Assembly (NCBI GenBank): GCA_020073325.1
Contig: JAIQFJ010000039.1
Span: 1-34,233 of the forward strand
Direction of reading: 5' to 3'
Source: Terriglobia bacterium
GTDB lineage: Bacteria; Acidobacteriota; Terriglobia; Bryobacterales; Bryobacteraceae
Length of the DNA: 34,233 nucleotides
Part shown: positions 2,902 to 21,980 of the stretch, piece by piece
Layout: the number at the start of each line of letters is the position of its first letter
Position numbering within the stretch: position 1 is the first letter of the stretch
Notes under the pieces: model-generated
What the model was told of the DNA's origin: nothing
Databases searched by the model: none
The model's input: only the letters and a program-made list of their open reading frames with translations
Program-made: the position numbers and the translations under genes

Positions 2902-4734
2902 ATGCGCACGATCGCCTTTCTGTCGTTGATCGCCTCAGCCGCGTTCGCTGCCGACCCCGACGGGGCCGCTCTCTATAAACAGCACTGCGCGATCTGTCAT
3001 GAGAATTCGGGTGCCACACGCGCGCCTGCTCCGGCGGCGCTCAGGTTGATGTCGCCGGAAAACGTCGTGAAGGCGCTCGAATCAGGCGTCATGAAGGATC
3101 AAGGCGCTGCGCTGAGTGCAGGCGACAAAGAAAACGTTGCCGAATTTCTAACCGGCAAGATGATCGGTGCGCAGCAGGCCGCAACGGTCGGCATGTGCTC
3201 TGACGTGAACGCGTTTTCGCCCACAGGGAAGAACTGGAATGGCTGGGGAGCCGACCTCGCCAACACGCGCTTCCAACCGGCTGAAACTGCCGGACTGACC
3301 GCAGATCAAGTGTCGAAGCTCAAGCTGAAGTGGGTCTTCGCGTTTCCGAATACGTTCCTCGCGAACGGCTCGCCGACCGTCGTCGGAGGACGCATCTTCG
3401 TCGCCAGCGCGAATCGCAAGATTTATTCGCTCGACGCGAAGTCAGGGTGCCAATACTGGGCCTTCGAAGCGGAGGCGGGAGTCCGTACGGCGATCACGGT
3501 CGCCCAGGTGGATCACCGGCAGGTCGCGATGTTCGGCGATCAGCGCGCGACGGCTTACTCGGTCGATGCGTCAACGGGGGAACTGATCTGGAAAATCAAG
3601 GTGGACGATCATCCGCGCTCGAAGATCGTCGGAGCGCCGGCGTATCTCAACGGCAAGCTGTACGTGCCGATCACGGCGGGCGAGGAAACGTCGCCGATCA
3701 ATCCGAAGTACGAATGTTGCACGGGCCGCGGCGCGCTGGCGGCGCTCGATGCGGCCACCGGCAAGACGATCTGGAAGTCGTTCACGGTGACCGAAACTCC
3801 GCATCCGACCGGCGAAACCAAAAGCGGCACGCGAACCTGGGGACCTTCCGGCGCGAGCATCTGGTCGGCGCCGACGATCGACACCGAGCGGAAAATCATC
3901 TACGTCGCGACGGGCGACAATTTTTCGGAGCCTGCAACGAAGACCAGCGACGCGGTGATCGCCTACTCGATGGAGACGGGCAAGATGTTGTGGGCCACGC
4001 AGTTCACCGAAAACGACGCGTACAATTCGGCCTGTCATCTCGCATCGCGCGAGAATTGTCCGCCGACCGACGGGCCAGACTTCGACCTGGGAGCCTCGCC
4101 CATTCTGGTGAAGCTCGCAAACGGGAAGCGCGTGCTGCTGGTGAGCCAGAAATCGGGGGTCGCGCACGGGCTGGATGCGGACAGCGGCAAGGTGATGTGG
4201 GAACATCGCGTGGGACGAGGCGGAACGCTGGGCGGGATTCAGTGGGGGTCGGCATCGGACGGCAAGAATATGTACGTCGCCAATTCCGACATTTCGTGGA
4301 CGAAGGGCGAGAAGGAATTTTCACGCGACGCGCGCGGCAATCTGGAGCGGCGCACGGTGGATCCGAAAACGGGCGGCGGACTTTTTGCGATCGATGCGGC
4401 GACGGGCAAACGCGTGTGGGCGGCGGCTCCCGCGGTGTGCGGCGAACAGCCGATGTGCAGTCCCGCGCAGTCGGCCGCCGTCACGGCGATTCCGGGCGTG
4501 ATTTTTTCGGGCGGAGTCGACGGCCACATGCGAGCCTATTCCTCGCGCGACGGCAAAGTGATCTGGGATTTCGACACCGCGCGTGAATTCGAGACCGTGA
4601 ATGGGTTGAAGGCGAGCGGCGGCGCGATCGACGGTCCTGGTCCGACGGTCGCGGGCGGGATGGTGTATGTCCCCTCGGGCTATGGGATCTGGGGCGGCAA
4701 AGCGGGCAATGTTCTGCTCGCCTTTGGAGAATAA
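2902..4734 (+). CDS. Periplasmic PQQ-dependent dehydrogenase with N-terminal cytochrome c (polyvinyl-alcohol-dehydrogenase-like)
   Basis: This 610-residue protein starts at ATG 2902, which gives a clean signal peptide (MRTIAFLSLIASAAFAAD); an upstream in-frame ATG at 2863 would spoil it. Residues 20-95 are a class I cytochrome c domain with the haem site CAICH (29-33) and a probable axial Met in GVMKDQG. The rest is a quinoprotein beta-propeller with repeated 'ALDAATGKxIW' blades. Cys272-Cys273 in YECCTGRG is the vicinal pair that lies beside PQQ in quinoprotein alcohol dehydrogenases. The domain order resembles PVA dehydrogenase. It should oxidise an alcohol in the periplasm and pass electrons to its own haem. 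First gene of a four-gene operon; the next ATG follows the stop with no gap. The natural substrate is unknown. Confidence 0.9.
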   Translation: MRTIAFLSLIASAAFAADPDGAALYKQHCAICHENSGATRAPAPAALRLMSPENVVKALESGVMKDQGAALSAGDKENVAEFLTGKMIGAQQAATVGMCSDVNAFSPTGKNWNGWGADLANTRFQPAETAGLTADQVSKLKLKWVFAFPNTFLANGSPTVVGGRIFVASANRKIYSLDAKSGCQYWAFEAEAGVRTAITVAQVDHRQVAMFGDQRATAYSVDASTGELIWKIKVDDHPRSKIVGAPAYLNGKLYVPITAGEETSPINPKYECCTGRGALAALDAATGKTIWKSFTVTETPHPTGETKSGTRTWGPSGASIWSAPTIDTERKIIYVATGDNFSEPATKTSDAVIAYSMETGKMLWATQFTENDAYNSACHLASRENCPPTDGPDFDLGASPILVKLANGKRVLLVSQKSGVAHGLDADSGKVMWEHRVGRGGTLGGIQWGSASDGKNMYVANSDISWTKGEKEFSRDARGNLERRTVDPKTGGGLFAIDAATGKRVWAAAPAVCGEQPMCSPAQSAAVTAIPGVIFSGGVDGHMRAYSSRDGKVIWDFDTAREFETVNGLKASGGAIDGPGPTVAGGMVYVPSGYGIWGGKAGNVLLAFGE

Positions 4735-5793
4735 ATGGCGAAGCATTCTTTTGTGTGCTTTTTGGTGTTCGCAGGGGCACTTTTAGGGCAAATTAACGCC
4801 GATTTAGTCGAACAACGGCGCGCCGATCTGGAGAAGCAATCCAAGGACCCGGTCTTCAAGCGCGACGGCGGGACGCAGCCGCAGGACTGGAATTACCAGC
4901 TTCCGGCCGGCGTCGCGACGCATCAAGTCACTTTCTATGCCGGAGGCGGAACGCCGCTCTACGGGAAGATGTTTTTCCCGCGCGATTTTTCGGCGAGCGG
5001 AAAAACTCCGGGGATCGTGGTCGGGCATGGCATCAACGCGCTCTCGATCGGCATTGAAAAATATGCGGCACGATTTGCGGAGCGCGGATTCGTCGCCATG
5101 GCGATCGACTACGAATCGTACGGCTTCAGCGGCAGCGAGGTGTCGCTGCTGGAACGGGACACGACGACCGACCGCAGGCCGGTCTGGGAACTCACCGCGC
5201 GCGTCCAGCTCAAGCGGACCGACCTCAACAACTTTAAGGAGGTCGAAGATTACCGCGCCGCGGTTTCGTTTCTGCAAGGCGAGCCGGGAATCGATCCGAA
5301 CCGCATCGGTATCTGGGGCTCGAGCAACGCGGGCAGCGTGGTGATCGCCGTCGCCGGGCGCGATCCGCGCATCAAGGCCGTGGTCTCGCAGATCGCCGGA
5401 ACCGGAGCCGCGCCTGCTTCCGCGCCCGTCGCGATCTCGAAAAATTTCGAAGACGATATGATCAAGCGCGCGCGCACCGGGCAAGGGGCCGAAGTCGACG
5501 GAGGATTTTCTTTCCGCAGCAAGATCGACATGTTCAGCAACCAGCGCGATCGCGAGGTGCGGCCGGGGTCGACTGTCGACCGGATTCAGGAATCGACGAA
5601 GATTCTTTCGATTCTCGCCGAGAAGGACGAACTGGGGAATCCGATCGCCGGCGCAAACGCGGCAGCGAAGGCGTTTAAAGGGACCTGGCAGGTGGTGATT
5701 CTGCCGTACATGACCCATTTCCAGATGTATTCCGGAGCGGCGTTCGAAATCGATTCGACGCTGGCCGGGGATTGGTTCGCCAAATATTTATGA
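4735..5793 (+). CDS. Exported alpha/beta hydrolase, dienelactone-hydrolase/S9-like
   Basis: This 352-residue protein has a signal peptide (MAKHSFVCFLVFAGALLGQ). The alpha/beta-hydrolase core includes VVGHGIN, which leads into the oxyanion region, and the nucleophile elbow GIWGSSNAGS with Ser197. Asp298 in AEKDELG and His328 in YMTHFQM complete a plausible triad. The start codon directly follows the stop of the PQQ dehydrogenase, so the two are translationally coupled. In PVA-degrading sphingomonads the dehydrogenase gene is followed by a hydrolase that cleaves the resulting beta-diketone, and the same order appears here. The specific substrate is inference; ester, lactone or diketone hydrolysis are all possible. 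Confidence 0.88.
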   Translation: MAKHSFVCFLVFAGALLGQINADLVEQRRADLEKQSKDPVFKRDGGTQPQDWNYQLPAGVATHQVTFYAGGGTPLYGKMFFPRDFSASGKTPGIVVGHGINALSIGIEKYAARFAERGFVAMAIDYESYGFSGSEVSLLERDTTTDRRPVWELTARVQLKRTDLNNFKEVEDYRAAVSFLQGEPGIDPNRIGIWGSSNAGSVVIAVAGRDPRIKAVVSQIAGTGAAPASAPVAISKNFEDDMIKRARTGQGAEVDGGFSFRSKIDMFSNQRDREVRPGSTVDRIQESTKILSILAEKDELGNPIAGANAAAKAFKGTWQVVILPYMTHFQMYSGAAFEIDSTLAGDWFAKYL

Positions 5794-6701
5794 ACGATCC
5801 CACGAAGTCACGTGTCCGGCCGAGCGGTGAGTGGCAAGGAGCGGGTGTTCGGGCAAGGTCAGGACCCGCTCGTTGGCACTCGCGGCTCTGCGTGGTGGCG
5901 TTGGTGTTTTGTGGTCAGGTATTCGGGCAGAGCGCGAAAGATGTCCGCTTCTACAGCGAGAACGTGCAGTGTTACGCGAAGCTGTTTTTGCCCGCGGGAT
6001 TTTCGACGGACACGAAAGCAGCCGCCGTAGTGCTCGCTCCCGGCTGGGGACAAACGGAAGCGACTGTCGAGAAAGACGCGGCGCAGATTGCAGCCAAGGG
6101 GATGGTCGCCATGGCGATCGATTATCGCGGCTGGGGGCGCAGCGGCGGCTATGTCTACCTGGCCGAAGACGTGCGCTATGACGATCGCCTGCGATTTTCG
6201 CAGCACACGGCGAAGGTGCGGATCCGCCGCAAGCGCCTGATCCCGGACGAACAGATCGACGATATTCGCAACGCGATTTCGTATCTTCAAGGCGAGCCGG
6301 GCGTGGATCGCGCGCGGATCGGGGTGTGGGGGAAGGACATGGCGGGCGGACACGCGATGGTGGTGGCGGGAATCGATCCTCGGGTGAAAGCGGTGGTGGC
6401 GGTGGCGGCGAAGATCGAAGGGAAGGATACGCCGCGGCAGTTGGCGAAGGATCCGCTACAGGCGACACGCGTGAAACTCGCGCGGGCCGATGCGGCAGCG
6501 GCGTCGACGATGGCGGCGGACGAAACGAAAATCGCGCTGGCGGAATATCATCCGTACTGGTTTGTGTCGCAGATTCCAGCGACGACCGCGGTGCTGTTTG
6601 CCGGAGGCAGCAGCGATTCCGAAGCCGCGGCGAAGATTCTGAAAGGACCGGTGCAAATGTCGGGAGAGGCAGCCGAATGGTTCGCGAGGTATCTGCAATG
6701 A
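5790..6701 (+). CDS. Alpha/beta-hydrolase paralogue with Asp in place of the nucleophile Ser, probably inactive or altered
   Basis: This 303-residue protein starts by ATGA overlap with the preceding hydrolase. The n-region is unusually long and basic before a hydrophobic stretch (LCVVALVFCGQVFGQ), so the signal peptide is plausible but atypical. The two hydrolases are clear paralogues: both have GFVAMAIDY/GMVAMAIDY, an ISYLQGEPGVD-type segment and a WFAKYL/WFARYL end. At the nucleophile elbow WGSSNAG has become WGKDMAG, with Asp183 at the Ser position. The segment that carries the catalytic His in the paralogue is missing: the sequence runs from ILKGPVQM straight into the last helix. A Ser-His mechanism is therefore impossible. 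An Asp-nucleophile enzyme would still need a His, so a scaffold or pseudoenzyme role is more likely. It is coupled to the next gene. Confidence 0.85.
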   Translation: MNDPTKSRVRPSGEWQGAGVRARSGPARWHSRLCVVALVFCGQVFGQSAKDVRFYSENVQCYAKLFLPAGFSTDTKAAAVVLAPGWGQTEATVEKDAAQIAAKGMVAMAIDYRGWGRSGGYVYLAEDVRYDDRLRFSQHTAKVRIRRKRLIPDEQIDDIRNAISYLQGEPGVDRARIGVWGKDMAGGHAMVVAGIDPRVKAVVAVAAKIEGKDTPRQLAKDPLQATRVKLARADAAAASTMAADETKIALAEYHPYWFVSQIPATTAVLFAGGSSDSEAAAKILKGPVQMSGEAAEWFARYLQ

Positions 6702-8383
6702 GGCGCTGGGCCGTTCCCTTTGGTCGCGGTTCGTTGTTGCTGATCGGGGCTTTGCTGCACGCTCAGGATGGCGCTGCGATCTTTCAGCGCGAATGCGCGG
6801 CGTGCCACAACGGGGCCGCCGATTCGCGCGCGCCGAGCCGCGAGGTTCTGGCGCAGAGGTCGCCCGAAGGAATCCTGCAGGCCCTCAGTGCCGGAACCAT
6901 GCGTCCCCAGGGAGCGCATCTGAGCGGCAACGAACGGCGCGCCGTCGCGGAATTTCTCAGCGGCAAAAAGATCAGCGGCGATGTGACCGGAGCGTCCACG
7001 GGGCGATGCGAAACACAGCGACCGTTCAGCGCAACACCGCCGCTTTGGTCGAACTGGGGAGCCTCGCTTACGAACACGCGATTCCAGCCGGCCGATCAGG
7101 CCGGGCTCACCGCTGCGCAGGTCCCGCATCTCGTCTTGAAATGGGCCCTCGGATTTCCGGACGCGACGTCGGCGTGGTCGCAACCCACCGTCGCAGGCGG
7201 GCGGCTGTTCGTCGGCAGCCACAACGGGACCGTTTTTTCTCTCGACGCGAAGACCGGATGTATTTATTGGACCTATAGCGCGAAGGGCGCGGTGCGCAGT
7301 TCCGTCGTCGTCTCGGGGAACGCAGTCTACTTCGGCGACAATAGCGCGACGGCGTACGCGCTGGATGCCGCGACAGGAAAAGAATTGTGGTCGCGCAAAG
7401 TGGAAGAGCATCCGTATGCGCGCATCTCCGGATCGCCGGCTGTTTACGAGGGCCGCGTGTATGTCGGCGTCGCGTCGTTTGAGGAAACGGTCGGGTCCAA
7501 TCCCAATTACGAATGCTGCACGTTTCGCGGGACGCTCAATGCGCTCGATGCGAAGACGGGGGCCGTCGTCTGGCGGACCTATCTGGTCCCGCAGCCGAAA
7601 CCCGCCGGCAAGAGCGCGACGGGAAAAACCTTGTGGGGACCTTCGGGAGCGGGCATCTGGTCCGCCCCGACCATCGACGTCAAGCGTGGCCTGATTTATG
7701 CGGGAACGGGCAACACATACACGGCACCGCAGCTCGACACCAGCGACGCGATCGTCGCCTTCGATCTGAAGACCGGAAAAATCAAGTGGACCAAACAGGC
7801 GACTCCGAAGGATGTCTTCATCAGCGGGTGCCGCGCGGGCTCGAAGAATCCGATTTGCCCCGAAGAAGTCGGGCCCGATTTCGATTTCGGGCAGCCGCCG
7901 ATTCTCACGAAGCTCGCGGACGGAAAAGACGTGCTGATCGTCGGGCAGAAATCGGGAGTCGGCTACGCGCTCGATCCCGACAAGGAAGGCGCCGTGATGT
8001 GGCAGTATCGCGCGGGCGAAGGCAGCGCGCTGGGCGGCCTGGAGTGGGGCTCGGCGGTCGACGGAGAAAACGCGTATTTTCCGGTGTCGGACATCATCAG
8101 GCCGAAGCCGGGCGGGCTGCATGCGGTGAATCTCGCGACGGGAAAGCGCGTCTGGTATGCCGAGCCTCCGCCGCCGAAATGCGGGACGGGCCGCGGATGC
8201 AACGCCGCGCAAACGGCCGCGATCACGGTGATTCCCGGCGTGATTTTCTCCGGCTCGAACGACGGCGCGATTCGAGCTTACTCAACCAAGGACGGCTCGA
8301 TCCTCTGGGAGTACGACACGAATCGCGAGTTCACCACGCTGAACGGAGTCCCGAGTAAATCCGCCCTCTGGCGTACAATGTGA
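6698..8383 (+). CDS. Second PQQ-dependent dehydrogenase with N-terminal cytochrome c, shortened C-terminus
   Basis: This 561-residue protein starts by ATGA overlap with the pseudo-hydrolase. A signal peptide (LLLIGALLHAQ) is followed by the haem site CAACH (33-37), a likely axial Met in GTMRPQG, and quinoprotein blades. The vicinal Cys273-Cys274 in YECCTFRG indicates PQQ. It aligns throughout with the first dehydrogenase of the operon. After REFTTLNG, however, it ends in 11 unrelated residues, whereas the paralogue continues for 42 more that carry the last strands of the propeller (GMVYVPSGYGIW...VLLAFGE). It is thus 31 residues short exactly where a propeller closes. No frameshifted remainder is visible downstream, since the next promoter and gene follow at once. 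It may be active with an altered closure, or degenerate. Confidence 0.87.
   Translation: MRRWAVPFGRGSLLLIGALLHAQDGAAIFQRECAACHNGAADSRAPSREVLAQRSPEGILQALSAGTMRPQGAHLSGNERRAVAEFLSGKKISGDVTGASTGRCETQRPFSATPPLWSNWGASLTNTRFQPADQAGLTAAQVPHLVLKWALGFPDATSAWSQPTVAGGRLFVGSHNGTVFSLDAKTGCIYWTYSAKGAVRSSVVVSGNAVYFGDNSATAYALDAATGKELWSRKVEEHPYARISGSPAVYEGRVYVGVASFEETVGSNPNYECCTFRGTLNALDAKTGAVVWRTYLVPQPKPAGKSATGKTLWGPSGAGIWSAPTIDVKRGLIYAGTGNTYTAPQLDTSDAIVAFDLKTGKIKWTKQATPKDVFISGCRAGSKNPICPEEVGPDFDFGQPPILTKLADGKDVLIVGQKSGVGYALDPDKEGAVMWQYRAGEGSALGGLEWGSAVDGENAYFPVSDIIRPKPGGLHAVNLATGKRVWYAEPPPPKCGTGRGCNAAQTAAITVIPGVIFSGSNDGAIRAYSTKDGSILWEYDTNREFTTLNGVPSKSALWRTM
8374..8379 (+). promoter_or_regulatory. Candidate -10 box of the small secreted protein/malic enzyme unit
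   Basis: TACAAT lies 7 nt before the ATG at 8387 and inside the last codons of the shortened PQQ dehydrogenase. It is consistent with a leaderless transcript; no Shine-Dalgarno is present. Confidence 0.5.
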
Positions 8384-8386
8384 TCC

Positions 8387-8842
8387 ATGCGCAAATTCAC
8401 TCTGGCGGCCGCTCTTACCCTGGTCGCCTGTCTCGCCTCCGCTCAGGATAAGAACCCGCGATTCGGCCGGTGGAAGCTGAAGTCCGAAGCTCCCGCTCCT
8501 CAGAGCAACGTCATGACCTACGAGCCGTACGGCAAGGACGGCATGAAGATCATCATCGATCAGGTCAACAAGGACGGCGTCAAGTCGCAATGGTGGTACA
8601 CCACGCATTTCGACGGCAAAGACGAAAAACTCACGGGCAATCCGGGAACCGATACGGGCTCGGTGAAGGTCATCTCGCCGACCACGAACGAGATCGTTTA
8701 TAAGAAGGACGGAAAAATTACGCAAGTGCTTTCGAACGTGCTCGCCCCCGATGGCGACACGATCGGCGTGATGTACATTCGCGTCGGACCCGATGGGAAG
8801 ACGCGAGCCATCACCGTCGCGACCTACGAACGGATCAAGTGA
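8387..8842 (+). CDS. Small secreted protein, function unknown
   Basis: This 151-residue protein has a clear signal peptide (MRKFTLAAALTLVACLASAQDK). The mature part is lysine- and aspartate-rich, opens with NPRFGRWKLKSEAP, and appears all-beta: alternating short strands such as VMTYEPYG, KIIIDQVN, QWWYTTHFDG and ITVATYERIK suggest a small barrel or lipocalin-like sandwich. I know similar short exported proteins from Acidobacteria but no assigned role. It overlaps the malic enzyme by GTGA, so the two are co-translated although the products end in different compartments. The start is supported by the signal peptide and the upstream TACAAT box. Confidence 0.8.
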   Translation: MRKFTLAAALTLVACLASAQDKNPRFGRWKLKSEAPAPQSNVMTYEPYGKDGMKIIIDQVNKDGVKSQWWYTTHFDGKDEKLTGNPGTDTGSVKVISPTTNEIVYKKDGKITQVLSNVLAPDGDTIGVMYIRVGPDGKTRAITVATYERIK

Positions 8843-10431
8843 CGCCGCTTCCGGCTGCCCTGCACGGCGCGCGGCTGCTGAGCACGCCCGCCTACAACAA
8901 GGGCACGGCTTTCACGATCGAGGAGCGTTTCCGATTCGGCCTGCACGGCCTGTTGCCTCCTTACGTCGAAACACTGGAGGAGCAGGTGGCGCGGGCGTAC
9001 ACGGCGTACCTCGCCTATGAAAAGCCGCTCAATCGACACATCTATCTGCGCGCGCTGCAGGATAACAACGAGGTTCTGTTCTACCGCCTGCTGCTCGACC
9101 ATATCGAAGAGATGATGCCGGTGGTCTACACGCCCGTGGTCGCCGAGGCGTGCCGGCATTTCAGCCATATCTATCGGCGTCCGCGCGGCCTGTTCATTTC
9201 CTATCCCTTGCGCGACTCGATACCGGAACTACTGCGCAATCGCCCGCATCCTGAGGTCGACGTGATCGTCGTGACCGACGGCGAACGCATTCTGGGCATC
9301 GGCGACCAGGGCGTCGGCGGACTGGCGATTCCCATCGGCAAGTTGTCTTTATATGCTCTAATCGGCGGGATCCATCCGATGCGCACTCTGCCGATCGTGC
9401 TCGACGCGGGATCGAACAATCAGGAGGCGCGGTCCGATCCGACGTATCTCGGCTGGCATCACCAGCGCATCGCCGGACCGGCGTACGACGAGTTCATCGA
9501 TCAGTTCGTCAAAGCGGTGCGGCAGGAGCTTCCGCACGCCTGCCTGCAATGGGAGGATTTCGCCACCACGCACGCGCGCACGATTCTCGATCGCTACCGC
9601 AATGAGCACCTCAGCTTCAACGACGATATTCAGGGCACCGGGGCGGTCGTGCTGGGGGCGGTCCTCAGCGCGGCGAAAGCCGCCCGCTCGCGCATCCGCG
9701 ACCAGAAAATCGTATTCCTGGGCGCGGGCTCGGCCAGCATCGGCGTCGCGGATTATTTGCGGGCGGCGATGCGCGACGACGGTCTCACCGAATCCGAAGC
9801 GCTCGACCGTTTCTGGATCGTCGATAAAGACGGCCTGCTGCACGATCGCCGGACGGATCTGACGGCCGAACAGCGCGTCTACGCGCGAACCAATGCCGCG
9901 AGCATCACGCTGAGCGCGGTGATCCAAAGCATCGACGCGACAGTGCTGATCGGCCTGTCGACGGCGCGCGGCGCGTTTGCGGAATCGATCGTGCGCGAGA
10001 TGGCTCGCAAGACAGCGCGGCCGATTATTCTGCCGCTGTCGAATCCCACCGAGCGCAGTGAAGCGATTCCCACCGATCTTCTGGCGTGGACCAACGGACG
10101 CGCGCTGATCGCCACAGGGTCGCCGTTTGCGGGCATCGCCCAGTGCAACAACGTTTATATTTTTCCCGCGATCGGCCTGGCCTGCGTCGCCGCACGGGCG
10201 CGCCGCGTCACCGACGGCATGTTTCTGGCTGCCGCACGCGCGCTGGCCGACAATTCTCCCGGCGATCCGCTGCTGCCCGCGCTGCACGACCTGCGCAGCG
10301 TCACCACGAAGCTCGCGTTTGAGATCGCGAAGGAGGCGCAGCGATCGGGAGTCGCCGATCCGATGAGCGACGAAGCGTTAACTCAGGCCATCGCGGCGGC
10401 GCAGTGGTTCCCGAATTATCCTGTCTTCTGA
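8839..10431 (+). CDS. maeA: NAD-dependent malic enzyme (malate to pyruvate + CO2)
   Basis: This 530-residue protein has the size of the large malic enzymes of the SfcA/MaeA class. The malic N-terminal domain carries the signature Tyr in VVYTPVVAEAC, the binding stretch VVTDGERILGIGDQGVGGL and the catalytic Lys region GKLSLYALIGGI. A metal-site segment FNDDIQGTG follows, then the Rossmann domain with IVFLGAGSASIGVADYL. The glycine motif followed by the family's 'ILPLSNPTERSEA' supports NAD use, although the cofactor cannot be settled by eye. The start is GTG at 8839, overlapping the stop of the preceding gene; family alignment (TPAYNKGTAFTxEER) shows only a short N-terminal extension. It is a cytoplasmic anaplerotic or gluconeogenic enzyme. 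Confidence 0.95.
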   Translation: MTPLPAALHGARLLSTPAYNKGTAFTIEERFRFGLHGLLPPYVETLEEQVARAYTAYLAYEKPLNRHIYLRALQDNNEVLFYRLLLDHIEEMMPVVYTPVVAEACRHFSHIYRRPRGLFISYPLRDSIPELLRNRPHPEVDVIVVTDGERILGIGDQGVGGLAIPIGKLSLYALIGGIHPMRTLPIVLDAGSNNQEARSDPTYLGWHHQRIAGPAYDEFIDQFVKAVRQELPHACLQWEDFATTHARTILDRYRNEHLSFNDDIQGTGAVVLGAVLSAAKAARSRIRDQKIVFLGAGSASIGVADYLRAAMRDDGLTESEALDRFWIVDKDGLLHDRRTDLTAEQRVYARTNAASITLSAVIQSIDATVLIGLSTARGAFAESIVREMARKTARPIILPLSNPTERSEAIPTDLLAWTNGRALIATGSPFAGIAQCNNVYIFPAIGLACVAARARRVTDGMFLAAARALADNSPGDPLLPALHDLRSVTTKLAFEIAKEAQRSGVADPMSDEALTQAIAAAQWFPNYPVF

Positions 10432-11447: not shown

Positions 11448-12362
11448 TCAGCGAACCGGTTTCTCCGCGCCGGAGTTGCGCAGATACGGTCCGCGACGGC
11501 CGCTGGGAAGAATCGTCGCTGTATCGGTGAGGGCCTGGACGAGTTGCTGGGCGGTCAATCCGACTGCTCCCGTCAGATCCGCGCCGCGGAAATCCGCCAT
11601 GGTGAGTTTCGCGCCGCGAAATTGCGCTCCGGCAAACACCGCGCGCCCGAAATCGCCCCCGCGAATGACCGAGTCGCGAAAATCGGTGTCTTTGAGATTT
11701 GCGTAACGGAACTCGCTCTGCACGATTTCGGTGCGCGTGAACTTGGCGCCGGTAAGAATCGCGCCGGTGAAATCGCAATGATCGATCTTCGATCCGGCAA
11801 AGCTCACCGCAGGACCGGAGCATCCGGTAAACCGCACATGCTGCAAACGGGTGTGATAGAAGACTGCGGCATCCAGCGTCGCTTCGCTGAAATCCGCGTC
11901 GTAAAAACGCGATTGGTGAAACGTCACGCCTCCCGCCGACGCGCCCGCGAAGCTCGTATCATTCACCGAAGCGTCCATCATGCGCGCGTTCGCCATGCGG
12001 GCGGACTTAAACGTCGCGCGCGCCGCCGAAACTTCAGAAAGATTGGCCCCCGTGAGCCATGCGCCCGCCAGCGCGGTGCCGGTAAGCGTCGCGCCGCTGA
12101 GATCGGCGTGCGCCAGGTTCGACCTCTGCAGGTCCGCGCGCTCCAGCGTCGCCTCGCTCAGATCTGCCTCGACGAGATTCGCGTCCAGCAGGGTGGTGCC
12201 TGCCAGAATCGCCTTGCGCAGCACGGCGCGTTGCAGATCGGCGTCGTTCAGCGTGACTCCACTGAGGTCGGCCTGCATCCCGGCGGTGTCGTCGTCGAGC
12301 CAGGCGGCGTGCGCCCGGAGGATCGCGGGCAGCGGAATTTCAGGAGGCGCTTTTAGGGTCAT
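11448..12362 (-). CDS. Pentapeptide-repeat protein
   Basis: This 304-residue protein has a short N-terminal helix region (about 1-32, ILRAHAAWLDD). About 48 degenerate A(D/N)LxX pentapeptides follow, for example ADLSG, ANLVE, ADLSE and ADFRG, and it ends with the usual capping sequence GLTAQQLVQALTDTATILP. The fold should be a right-handed quadrilateral beta-helix. No signal peptide or membrane segment is visible. Some members (Qnr, MfpA) mimic DNA and protect gyrase, but most have unknown partners; nothing here points to a specific role. It lies 48 bp after pdxT on the same strand and may be read from the same transcript. Confidence 0.92.
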   Translation of the reverse strand: MTLKAPPEIPLPAILRAHAAWLDDDTAGMQADLSGVTLNDADLQRAVLRKAILAGTTLLDANLVEADLSEATLERADLQRSNLAHADLSGATLTGTALAGAWLTGANLSEVSAARATFKSARMANARMMDASVNDTSFAGASAGGVTFHQSRFYDADFSEATLDAAVFYHTRLQHVRFTGCSGPAVSFAGSKIDHCDFTGAILTGAKFTRTEIVQSEFRYANLKDTDFRDSVIRGGDFGRAVFAGAQFRGAKLTMADFRGADLTGAVGLTAQQLVQALTDTATILPSGRRGPYLRNSGAEKPVR

Positions 12363-19832: not shown

Positions 19833-21980
19833 ATGGAGCTTCAAAGTTTTCGTCAACATCTGTCGCCGTCATACGTCCAGAGTAGGGTGAGGATCTACAA
19901 AGCTGTTCTTATTCTCTTGGCTCTTGCAGGGATGGCAGGGGCGCAGGCTTGGGATAACTCAGGCAATGGACTGCTGAAAGGCGTTTATTATTTCCGCCAT
20001 ACCCTCTGGTATGTGGCGAGCAGTGACGGATCGCTCGGCGAAGCGATCGTCGCTTACGGTCAGATTACGTTCGACGGTAACGGAAACTATACGACAGCGG
20101 CGGCCTCTTACGACCTCGCCGCCGGGACAGTCACTTCGAACTACAACGTTTCGGGAACGTACAGTATCGCGGCGAGCGGATACGGCTTCCTGGACAGCCC
20201 GCTGAGTTCGACGTTCGGCGGATCGGCAAGCGGGGGGGACATCGTTTACGGGCTGGTTTCGAACGGGATTTTCATCGGAAACAGCACCGAAAATCAGATC
20301 GGATATAACGACCTGATGATCGCGGCGCCGCTGCCCTCGCCCGCGCCGACGCTCTCGTCGCTGAAAGGAAACTACACGCTGGCCGTGCTCGATATGCCGG
20401 CCACGGCCTCGCCTTACGAAGCGCGCGATTTTCAGATCACAATGACCGCCGATGGCGCCGGCAATCTGACCAACGTCATCGCCAGCGGATATGTCGGCGT
20501 GAGCGGAACGGGAGCAGTCCGGAATTCTTTAGGCACGGTGAAATATCTTTCGAGCGGCGGGGCGTTCAACCTGACGTTCGGCGGATCCTTCGACAGCTCC
20601 AATATCGATTCGACCCTGATCACCGGCAACCATTATTTATACGTCTCGCCCGACGGAAATTTCGTTTTCGGCGGATCGCCCACAGGGTGGGACATGATCG
20701 TCGGCATCCGTAACGGATCCGGGGCGCCTACGTTCAGCGGCCTCTACTATCAGGCGGGCATGGATGAGGACGTGACATACCTCTCCCAGGGCTATGGCAA
20801 CACGGACAATTACGTCGGTTCTTTGAAGGCGCTGGGCAACGGGAACATCCTGGGCCATCAGCGGATCGTCAACACGGCGCTGTTCACGCAGACCGCCACC
20901 AATGTCTACGATTCCACTTACGCCGACGGAATCACGATCAACGGGGACGGATCCGCGGATGACAACTTCCAGCATTATTATTTCACCAACAACGGAGCGA
21001 TTCGCATCGGGCTAGGGAAGGCGCCGGTGCTGGGGATCAGTGTGGCGCTGGCCGGTCCGACGTTCACCGCGCCGGGCTCGGGGCCTTACATCGACCCCAC
21101 CAGCATCGGCAACAGCGCGAGTTCGGCGCTGTTCACGACGAGCGTGGCTCCAGGCGAATTGATCACGTTCTACGGCGCGAACCTGGCGTCGGATTCGTTG
21201 CAGGACGCGACGTTCCCGGCGACGCTCGACAATGTGCAGGTCAAGATCAACGGGACCTTCGCGCCGATGCTATCGGTGAACAAGTGCGGACCCTACCCAT
21301 GCGCCACCGTGATGGTCCCGTATGAAGTAGCCGGGAAGGCCGTGGCGCAGATTCAGTTATTCAACAACGGCGCGGCATCGAACATCGTCACGGCCTGGGT
21401 TTCGATTCTCACCGACGGCACGGGCGGGACGGCTCCGGGCGTGTTCACGGTGCCGGCGGGCGGCCTGGGCTACGCCGCGGCGCAGCACACGACGGATTTT
21501 TCTCTGATCACGCCGACCAGTCCCGCGCAGCCGGGGGAAATCATCGCCATGTATCTGACGGGGATCGGTCCGGTGACTCCGGCGGTGGCCAGCGGCGCGC
21601 CGGGTCCCGTACCGGCGGCGACGTCGGTCAATGCTCTGAATGTCGCCATCGGAGGAGTGGGCGCCACCACATCGTTCGTCGGGCTGACGCCGCAGGTTTC
21701 AGGCCTGGCGCAAATCAATCTGACGATTCCGACCGGGATCCCGGCGGGCGATCAGGTGCTGGAAGTGGCGGGTCCGGATTCGGACACGTTTGAGGCGCTG
21801 ATCAGCGTTGGATCGGGCTCAACGTCGACCGTAAACGTGCAGCCGGCGACACGGCGCTCGATCACGCGCACGCGAAAGCACGGCGGGCGGCCGTTGGGCG
21901 GGGCTCCCTCCGGATTCCACAAGATGCCCGCAGCGCGAACCGCGGGCCACGCGCGCGGGGCGGAGAACACGCAGCCGTAG
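19833..21980 (+). CDS. Large secreted protein with C-terminal TIGR03437 domain, function unknown
   Basis: This 715-residue protein starts at ATG 19833 with AAGAAGGG upstream. The export signal (VLILLALAGMAGAQA) follows an unusually long n-region of about 22 residues. Residues 45-410 are Gly/Asn/Ser/Thr-rich beta structure containing repeated 'GQITFDGNGNYT...' and 'FQITMTADGAGNLTN' units, known from surface proteins of Acidobacteria. Residues 430-665 form the TIGR03437 Ig-like module (ITFYGANLASDSL, YLTGIGPVTPAV, INLTIPTGIPAGDQ). It ends with a basic tail of about 50 residues (RRSITRTRKHGGRPLGG...) that is foreign to the family. It is divergent from the neighbouring TIGR03437 serine hydrolase. 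Role in the envelope or outside the cell is inferred. Confidence 0.85.
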   Translation: MELQSFRQHLSPSYVQSRVRIYKAVLILLALAGMAGAQAWDNSGNGLLKGVYYFRHTLWYVASSDGSLGEAIVAYGQITFDGNGNYTTAAASYDLAAGTVTSNYNVSGTYSIAASGYGFLDSPLSSTFGGSASGGDIVYGLVSNGIFIGNSTENQIGYNDLMIAAPLPSPAPTLSSLKGNYTLAVLDMPATASPYEARDFQITMTADGAGNLTNVIASGYVGVSGTGAVRNSLGTVKYLSSGGAFNLTFGGSFDSSNIDSTLITGNHYLYVSPDGNFVFGGSPTGWDMIVGIRNGSGAPTFSGLYYQAGMDEDVTYLSQGYGNTDNYVGSLKALGNGNILGHQRIVNTALFTQTATNVYDSTYADGITINGDGSADDNFQHYYFTNNGAIRIGLGKAPVLGISVALAGPTFTAPGSGPYIDPTSIGNSASSALFTTSVAPGELITFYGANLASDSLQDATFPATLDNVQVKINGTFAPMLSVNKCGPYPCATVMVPYEVAGKAVAQIQLFNNGAASNIVTAWVSILTDGTGGTAPGVFTVPAGGLGYAAAQHTTDFSLITPTSPAQPGEIIAMYLTGIGPVTPAVASGAPGPVPAATSVNALNVAIGGVGATTSFVGLTPQVSGLAQINLTIPTGIPAGDQVLEVAGPDSDTFEALISVGSGSTSTVNVQPATRRSITRTRKHGGRPLGGAPSGFHKMPAARTAGHARGAENTQP

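Follow-up and report, generated by a model that had tools for sequence, protein, structure and literature searches.

A stretch of 34,233 nucleotides from a Terriglobia bacterium of the family Bryobacteraceae (contig JAIQFJ010000039.1 of assembly GCA_020073325.1; hereafter the window) carries four adjoining genes in which two quinohemoproteins (QP1 and QP2) flank two alpha/beta-hydrolases (HYD1 and HYD2). Our analyses have placed both quinohemoproteins in the family of polyvinyl alcohol dehydrogenase (PVADH) and the alignments suggest that one of the two hydrolases has been retained by evolution despite the loss of its catalytic residues. The four genes probably encode a periplasmic unit in which the oxidation of a natural secondary alcohol or hydroxy-ester would be followed by hydrolysis. 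The initial annotation had likened this cluster to the operon for polyvinyl alcohol (PVA) degradation, in which, according to passages of two papers, PVADH oxidises and an oxidized-PVA hydrolase (OPH) hydrolyses (PMC12243470, PMC9602593). The unit would resemble the PVA pathway in outline but does not qualify as a PVA operon; the likeness stands for both quinoproteins, which are of the PVADH type as judged from their sequences, domain order and motifs and from the tree, but not for HYD1, which has no significant similarity to OPH.

QP1 and QP2 are members of the PVADH family

A search of plasmids with QP2 (tblastn) reached Sphingopyxis sp. 113P3, where the product of the gene just before the QP2 match corresponds to the OPH of PDB entry 3WLA (E 3.5e-189). 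Its neighbour, which the record describes as a PQQ-binding-like beta-propeller (PQQ, pyrroloquinoline quinone), we take to be the authentic PVADH, a name that we assign by its position. Homology to this protein extends over the full length of QP1 (39% identity over 631 columns, E 4e-144, haem domain included) and of QP2 (42% over 561 columns), and the order of an N-terminal cytochrome c followed by a propeller is common to all three. Among 19 aligned members of the PVADH type, including the 113P3 protein, the CxxCH motif, Met64, the cysteine pair CC272-273, Arg276, Trp321, Lys417, Asp463 and Asn567 are invariant (19/19); Glu262 is replaced by Val in EbN1 and THN1, Asp350 is replaced by Asn in L128 (L, G and C numbers are our handles for loci, genomes and contigs), and position 339 varies among D, N and E. 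The PQQ, metal and base roles of these residues are presumed from an alignment with 1KV9 and from what is known of the family of 1KV9; Glu262, Asp339 and Asp350 are the candidates for metal ligand and base.

A profile built from the 19 members gave at least 731.9 bits to 30 of 45 frames from loci other than that of the window (L083), some of the profile members being themselves among these 30, and at most 157 bits to the remaining 15; CxxCH and CC are present in 30/30 of the high scorers. The same division is seen in a tree that drew on 14 of the loci L084-L112 (29 in all) and on 10 of the 15 frames of other quinoproteins, in which 33 PVADH-type rows form one clade (100/100) against 10 rows of other quinoproteins, and QP1 and QP2 group with PVADH, as the early comparison with PVA degradation had anticipated. 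The neighbours of QP1 in this tree are a copy on contig C474 and the copies of G093 and G032 that adjoin hydrolases, those of QP2 are L077b, L119, L120, L123 and G113, and a sister relationship of QP1 and QP2 was rejected by the approximately unbiased (AU) test (p 7e-8). The sphingomonad PVADH nests inside the acidobacterial radiation; an alternative topology is not rejected (p-AU 0.057), and an origin of the sphingomonad enzyme within that radiation is only a lead.

QP1 aligns with the family through to the C-terminal end. QP2 stops 10 residues past NGV, where its three nearest complete orthologues (L119, L123 and L077b) extend 42-43 residues, and the lost end was not seen by eye in the three forward frames of 8251-8850; apart from this shortening, the frame of QP2 is whole and keeps CxxCH and CC. 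The type II quinohemoprotein alcohol dehydrogenases (1KV9, 1KB0 and 1YIQ) are like QP1 in combining a PQQ propeller with a cytochrome c domain, but in these enzymes the cytochrome is C-terminal and identity is 21-25%, and the CC pair of 1KV9 occupies a different part of the propeller from that of the PVADH type. Membership of the acido-empty-quinoprotein group A (TIGR04528) was considered and rejected, the two quinoproteins scoring 92.0 and 94.4 bits against the NCBI cut-off of 650. When a structure model of QP1 was compared with the PDB, designed and BamB propellers were found at Z scores equal to or above those of quinoproteins, and the fold alone is therefore no proof of PQQ use by QP1. A review places PVADH among PQQ enzymes bearing a c-type cytochrome (PMC6472588). 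Our literature search found no paper joining PVADH with Acidobacteria or polyvinylalcohol dehydrogenase with Bryobacter.

The source genome also holds, on contig C474, a second QP1-type PVADH (L068, C474:5810-7651, 64-66% identity to QP1), upstream of which a 1089-aa protein with Ig-like domains is encoded on the same strand; no hydrolase of the HYD1/HYD2 family was found on that contig.

A hydrolase with a complete triad and its apparently inactive paralogue

The paralogy of HYD1 and HYD2, which had been noted initially, is upheld by 41% identity over HYD1 residues 61-223 (E 7.5e-33). The triad of HYD1 consists of S197, D298 and H328, of which the Ser and His are kept in 23/23 aligned rows, the acid column being D or E. 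In HYD2 the Ser column is occupied by Asp in 3/12 rows (the window, L114 and L117) and by Gly in 9/12, and the His column contains His only in L114, which retains the acid as well, and in L121, the window copy being without it. These counts refer to an alignment from which L135-L137 were excluded, as was the HYD2 fragment of L124, which a contig end cuts; L116 stops just after HYD1, and the second hydrolase of L134, present as a 91-aa fragment downstream of the first, was assigned to neither type. The HYD2 rows form a single clade (100/99). In five pairs of sequences the ratio of nonsynonymous to synonymous substitution rates (dN/dS) is ~0.14, 0.19, 0.16, 0.28 and 0.27 for HYD2 and 0.07, 0.12, 0.14, 0.26 and 0.19 for HYD1, values that are rough, with dS near 1, overlapping pairs and four of the five pairs drawn between fused proteins. 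Because the Ser is lost in 12/12 rows, the rows form one clade and constraint is seen, we take HYD2 for a pseudohydrolase of old standing that has been retained, and not for a second active enzyme, unless its Asp forms work in another way. The description of the cluster as doubled and symmetrical is thus not sustained, as HYD2 lacks the nucleophilic Ser, QP2 is shortened, and QP1 and QP2 come from different subclades.

The solved proteins closest to HYD1 in both sequence and fold are PA2218 (2HDW) and the Chloroflexus alpha/beta-hydrolase 202 (7QJM), which are yet only ~20% identical to it and whose titles name no function; the model of HYD1 (pLDDT, a per-residue confidence score, 81) further suggests resemblance to PET46, thioesterase DcsB, YcjY, lipases and cinnamoyl/feruloyl esterases. 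Like HYD1, OPH (PDB 3WL5-3WLA) is encoded beside a PVADH, but the two share no significant sequence similarity: the best BLASTP E value is 2.4, and phmmer with HYD1 found no OPH chain at E 0.01, while an OPH query itself finds four OPH sequences. No OPH chain was among the 50 matches listed by Foldseek for the HYD1 model, a result that excludes nothing. Contrary to the initial annotation, the BLASTP and phmmer results do not support a place for the hydrolases in the OPH family, and no positive evidence was found for the C-C (beta-diketone) cleavage that it had envisaged as an alternative to ester cleavage. The model of the lactonase UilS is matched by HYD1 and HYD2 at 71.8 and 59 bits (cut-off 400), with the best stretch around the nucleophile elbow.

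HYD1-HYD2 pairs recur and are in part coupled to PVADH-type genes

Scanning of our genome collection with five HYD1-type proteins identified 25 loci, four of which (L119, L126, L129 and L131) are the source places of the query alignment; the names Cyanobacteria, Steroidobacter, Alphaproteobacteria and Hydrogenedentota among the loci are labels of metagenome-assembled genomes (MAGs). HYD1 is followed by HYD2 at 13 loci, counting the window, and the two are fused in 8/13 (viz. L113, L115, L117, L118, L119, L120, L122 and L123) and separate genes in 5/13 (the window, L114, L121, L124, which is cut by a contig end, and L132); HYD1-HYD2 is an old pair.

A PVADH-type gene accompanies the hydrolase family on the same strand at 6/25 loci (L117, L119, L120, L123, L128 and L131). 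PVADH precedes the hydrolase in L119, L123 and L131 and follows it in L128, and in L117 the PVADH gene is followed, beyond a gap, by a DUF6351 tannase-like gene (3767-5899) that overlaps the fused HYD1-HYD2 gene. At L120 (4249-7824), from a Terriglobia MAG (Centralia_MAG_166), a single frame of 1191 aa joins cytochrome c, PVADH (63% identity to QP2), HYD1 (58%) and HYD2 (43%), and this fusion is direct support for coupled oxidation and hydrolysis. Two quinoproteins of other types, one with a C-terminal cytochrome c and one with an N-terminal cytochrome c just under cut-off, are encoded directly upstream of a HYD1-like hydrolase on the same strand at L130 (573-5848; a MAG labelled Steroidobacter), the nearer lying ~60 bp from the hydrolase. 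When loci of the bacterial family were chosen by their hydrolase, an adjacent PVADH was found in 6/13. Two of these coincide with L119 and L131; the remaining four (L072, L077, L079 and L080) carry a hydrolase of a distant clade (26-31% to HYD1), and in G032 (L072) and G093 (L077) a MerR/TPR gene, the hydrolase, PVADH and a CarboxypepD_reg/outer-membrane barrel gene stand in succession. Because of the homology and the recurring neighbours, the operon is regarded as going beyond chance.

Within the genus, the hydrolases were found in 1/23 genomes, viz. that of the window only (E 1e-10), though in each of the four congeners sampled within the family there are 4 to 9 matches of the PVADH type, which suggests gain of the window hydrolases by transfer or their repeated loss. 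The pairing of dehydrogenase and hydrolase proposed in the initial annotation therefore holds in that it recurs and is once fused (L120), but conservation of the gene set does not extend across the genus, and the pairing is rare when viewed from the PVADH side.

Proposed function and alternative interpretations

In the proposed unit, QP1, and QP2 too if it still folds, would use a quinone cofactor to oxidise a natural compound at a secondary alcohol, and the haem c in the N-terminal domain of the dehydrogenase itself would relay the electrons to the respiratory chain. HYD1, as a serine hydrolase, would cleave the oxidised product, and HYD2, the apparently dead twin, would remain the partner of HYD1, its probable role being that of a structural or substrate-binding subunit. 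Signal-like N-terminal stretches, judged by eye, are present in QP1, HYD1, HYD2 and QP2 and are consistent with export. Sequential action on one substrate would be most economical because of the L120 fusion and the recurrent neighbours, and cleavage of an ester or lactone would be likelier than that of a C-C bond because of the nearest folds of HYD1 and the tannase-like neighbour in L117.

Several observations weigh against this proposal. Nine of the 13 other loci of the HYD1-type clade (L113-L116, L118, L121, L122, L124 and L132), several of them cut by contig ends, have no PVADH-type gene in the stretch examined; only 3/30 of the best PVADH loci, the window included, have the hydrolase family within ~1.5 kb (5/30 when weak matches are admitted); and the full fusion is found at one locus of 25, a MAG. 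Coupling of PVADH and hydrolase is a minority arrangement. Thr occupies position 243 in 17/19 PVADH-type members, the two exceptions being QP1 with Val and QP2 with Ser, and QP2 may be non-functional. Further, PqqB, PqqC and PqqE were not over cut-off in the source genome (for PqqE, no control genome was over cut-off either), and with no PQQ-synthesis family over cut-off the cofactor would come from outside, or would not be PQQ.

Of the other interpretations, decay of the second half of the unit, with HYD2 a pseudo-hydrolase, QP2 a shortened propeller and QP1 and HYD1 alone functional, is possible though doubtful: QP2 is without ~32 C-terminal residues that its orthologues retain and the window HYD2 is without Ser and His, but the Ser is missing throughout the 12-row HYD2 clade and yet constraint is seen there, and the frame of QP2 is otherwise intact. 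A true PVA-type pathway, in which QP1 and QP2 would act on a 1,3-diol polymer to yield beta-diketones by oxidation and HYD1 and HYD2 would cleave C-C bonds as OPH does, we hold to be very unlikely. The dehydrogenases are of the PVADH family, and a PVADH-type gene stands directly beside a hydrolase gene in the window, as it does beside oph on the 113P3 plasmid; however, HYD1 has no significant similarity to OPH, HYD2 has no nucleophile, and PVADH-type genes are common in the family (59/150 genomes), which suggests natural substrates. Unlike 113P3, the window has two dehydrogenases, one of them shortened, and no separate cytochrome c gene or major facilitator superfamily (MFS) gene was found by Pfam among the scanned neighbours.

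A route in which the quinohemoprotein would produce a lactone by oxidising a cyclic hemiacetal or an alcohol of sugar-like kind, with HYD1 as the lactonase, is unlikely. Pairs of a periplasmic quinoprotein and a lactonase exist, and HYD1 and HYD2 do match the UilS model, but far under its cut-off and best around the nucleophile elbow, and the substrates of PVADH are secondary alcohols; PMC9602593 names 1,3-diol units. Haloalkane dehalogenases and epoxide hydrolases employ an aspartate nucleophile, and the Asp of the window, L114 and L117, together with the acid and His kept in L114, might be read as making HYD2 a changed enzyme of that kind; with Gly in the other nine rows and His absent in 10/12, the window copy included, we regard this as the most improbable of the readings considered. 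The periplasmic oxidation-then-hydrolysis unit is the interpretation that we prefer.

With considerable reserve, we suggest that the unit might belong to a modular class of oxidising hydrolases, with a cytochrome c-quinoprotein dehydrogenase-serine hydrolase-dead hydrolase polypeptide as its extreme, in soil Acidobacteriota mostly without PQQ synthesis, the sphingomonad PVADH being an offshoot of this large natural family, recruited with an unrelated hydrolase. Apart from that suggestion, the results tie a plastic-degrading enzyme family to a large natural reservoir, the chemistry of the fused L120 protein is open to direct assay, it becomes testable how bacteria that have many quinoproteins, but in which PQQ synthesis was not detected, obtain their cofactor, and HYD2 would exemplify clearly a hydrolase that is catalytically dead and yet retained beside an active twin.

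Cofactor supply

The PVADH-type matches in the 59 genomes of the family (QP2 as query, E 1e-60) number up to nine each, nine being the maximum of candidates scored per genome, and the source genome contains 75 stretches matched by PQQ_2, several per protein. PqqC is over cut-off in 8/150 genomes of the family and PqqB in 7/150, all within those 8. Among the 59 PVADH-type genomes PqqC is over cut-off in 5, so not in 54; completeness is 90% or more in 50 of the 59, and 5 of these 50 have PqqC, although single absences of PQQ genes are weak, as the assemblies are incomplete. No association between PVADH and PqqC is seen (5/59 vs 3/91, Fisher p 0.26, kinship ignored). PqqU of E. coli found only partial matches in the source genome (best E 2.7e-9, query residues 23-250). 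In the passages that concern it, a 2025 paper reports this importer within Acidobacteria from Vicinamibacteria only, and suggests that members of the phyla discussed which lack PqqU make PQQ or rely on diffusion (PMC12124388). Scavenging of PQQ by diffusion would be the simplest answer.

Gene layout and surroundings

The coordinates of the genes are summarized in Table 1. The stop codon TAA of QP1 abuts the ATG of HYD1 at 4735 (0-bp junction), and ATGA overlaps join HYD1 to HYD2 at 5790 and HYD2 to QP2 at 6698, so that the frame coordinates confirm the run of four same-strand genes at 2902-8383 noted at the outset. Its reported composition, two cytochrome c-PQQ dehydrogenases around two hydrolases, agrees with the Pfam domains over cut-off, viz. 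Cytochrome_CBB3, PQQ and PQQ_2 in each of QP1 and QP2, AXE1, DLH, Peptidase_S9 and BAAT_C in HYD1, and Hydrolase_4, PETase, DLH, AXE1 and BAAT_C in HYD2.

Table 1. Genes of the proposed oxidation-hydrolysis unit and the adjoining downstream gene (positions in the window)
Gene	Position	Strand	Product
QP1	2902-4734	+	Quinohemoprotein of the PVADH family, 610 aa; N-terminal cytochrome c (CxxCH at residues 29-33), then PQQ-type beta-propeller
HYD1	4735-5793	+	Alpha/beta-hydrolase, 352 aa; complete Ser197-Asp298-His328 triad
HYD2	5790-6701	+	Paralogue of HYD1 with alpha/beta-hydrolase fold; Asp for nucleophilic Ser, without catalytic His
QP2	6698-8383	+	Second quinohemoprotein of the PVADH family, of another subclade than QP1; ~32 C-terminal residues short
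	8387-8842	+	Small protein with signal-like N-terminus; starts 3 nt after QP2; no Pfam match

The small protein encoded at 8387-8842 has no counterpart found at the other hydrolase loci surveyed, and its gene probably lies outside the unit; the surroundings of its relatives in G160 and G162 match none of the four genes, and membership of the unit is not supported. A malic enzyme (Pfam) is encoded downstream of it, and the upstream neighbours are an S9 peptidase gene in divergent orientation and a 109-aa frame that has no match in Pfam. Between 2300 and 10600 no promoter-like sites were found (1.6 expected), and terminator-like sites number 11 against 7.5 expected, some of them within genes. 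The source genome comprises 6.54 Mb in 600 contigs (93% complete, 4.5% contamination), with the operon on contig C284. Elsewhere in the window are a 715-aa frame without any Pfam match (19833-21980, + strand), a 649-aa protein with a domain of beta-lactamase fold (PF00144; 17798-19744, - strand) and a 304-aa pentapeptide-repeat protein (11451-12362, - strand).

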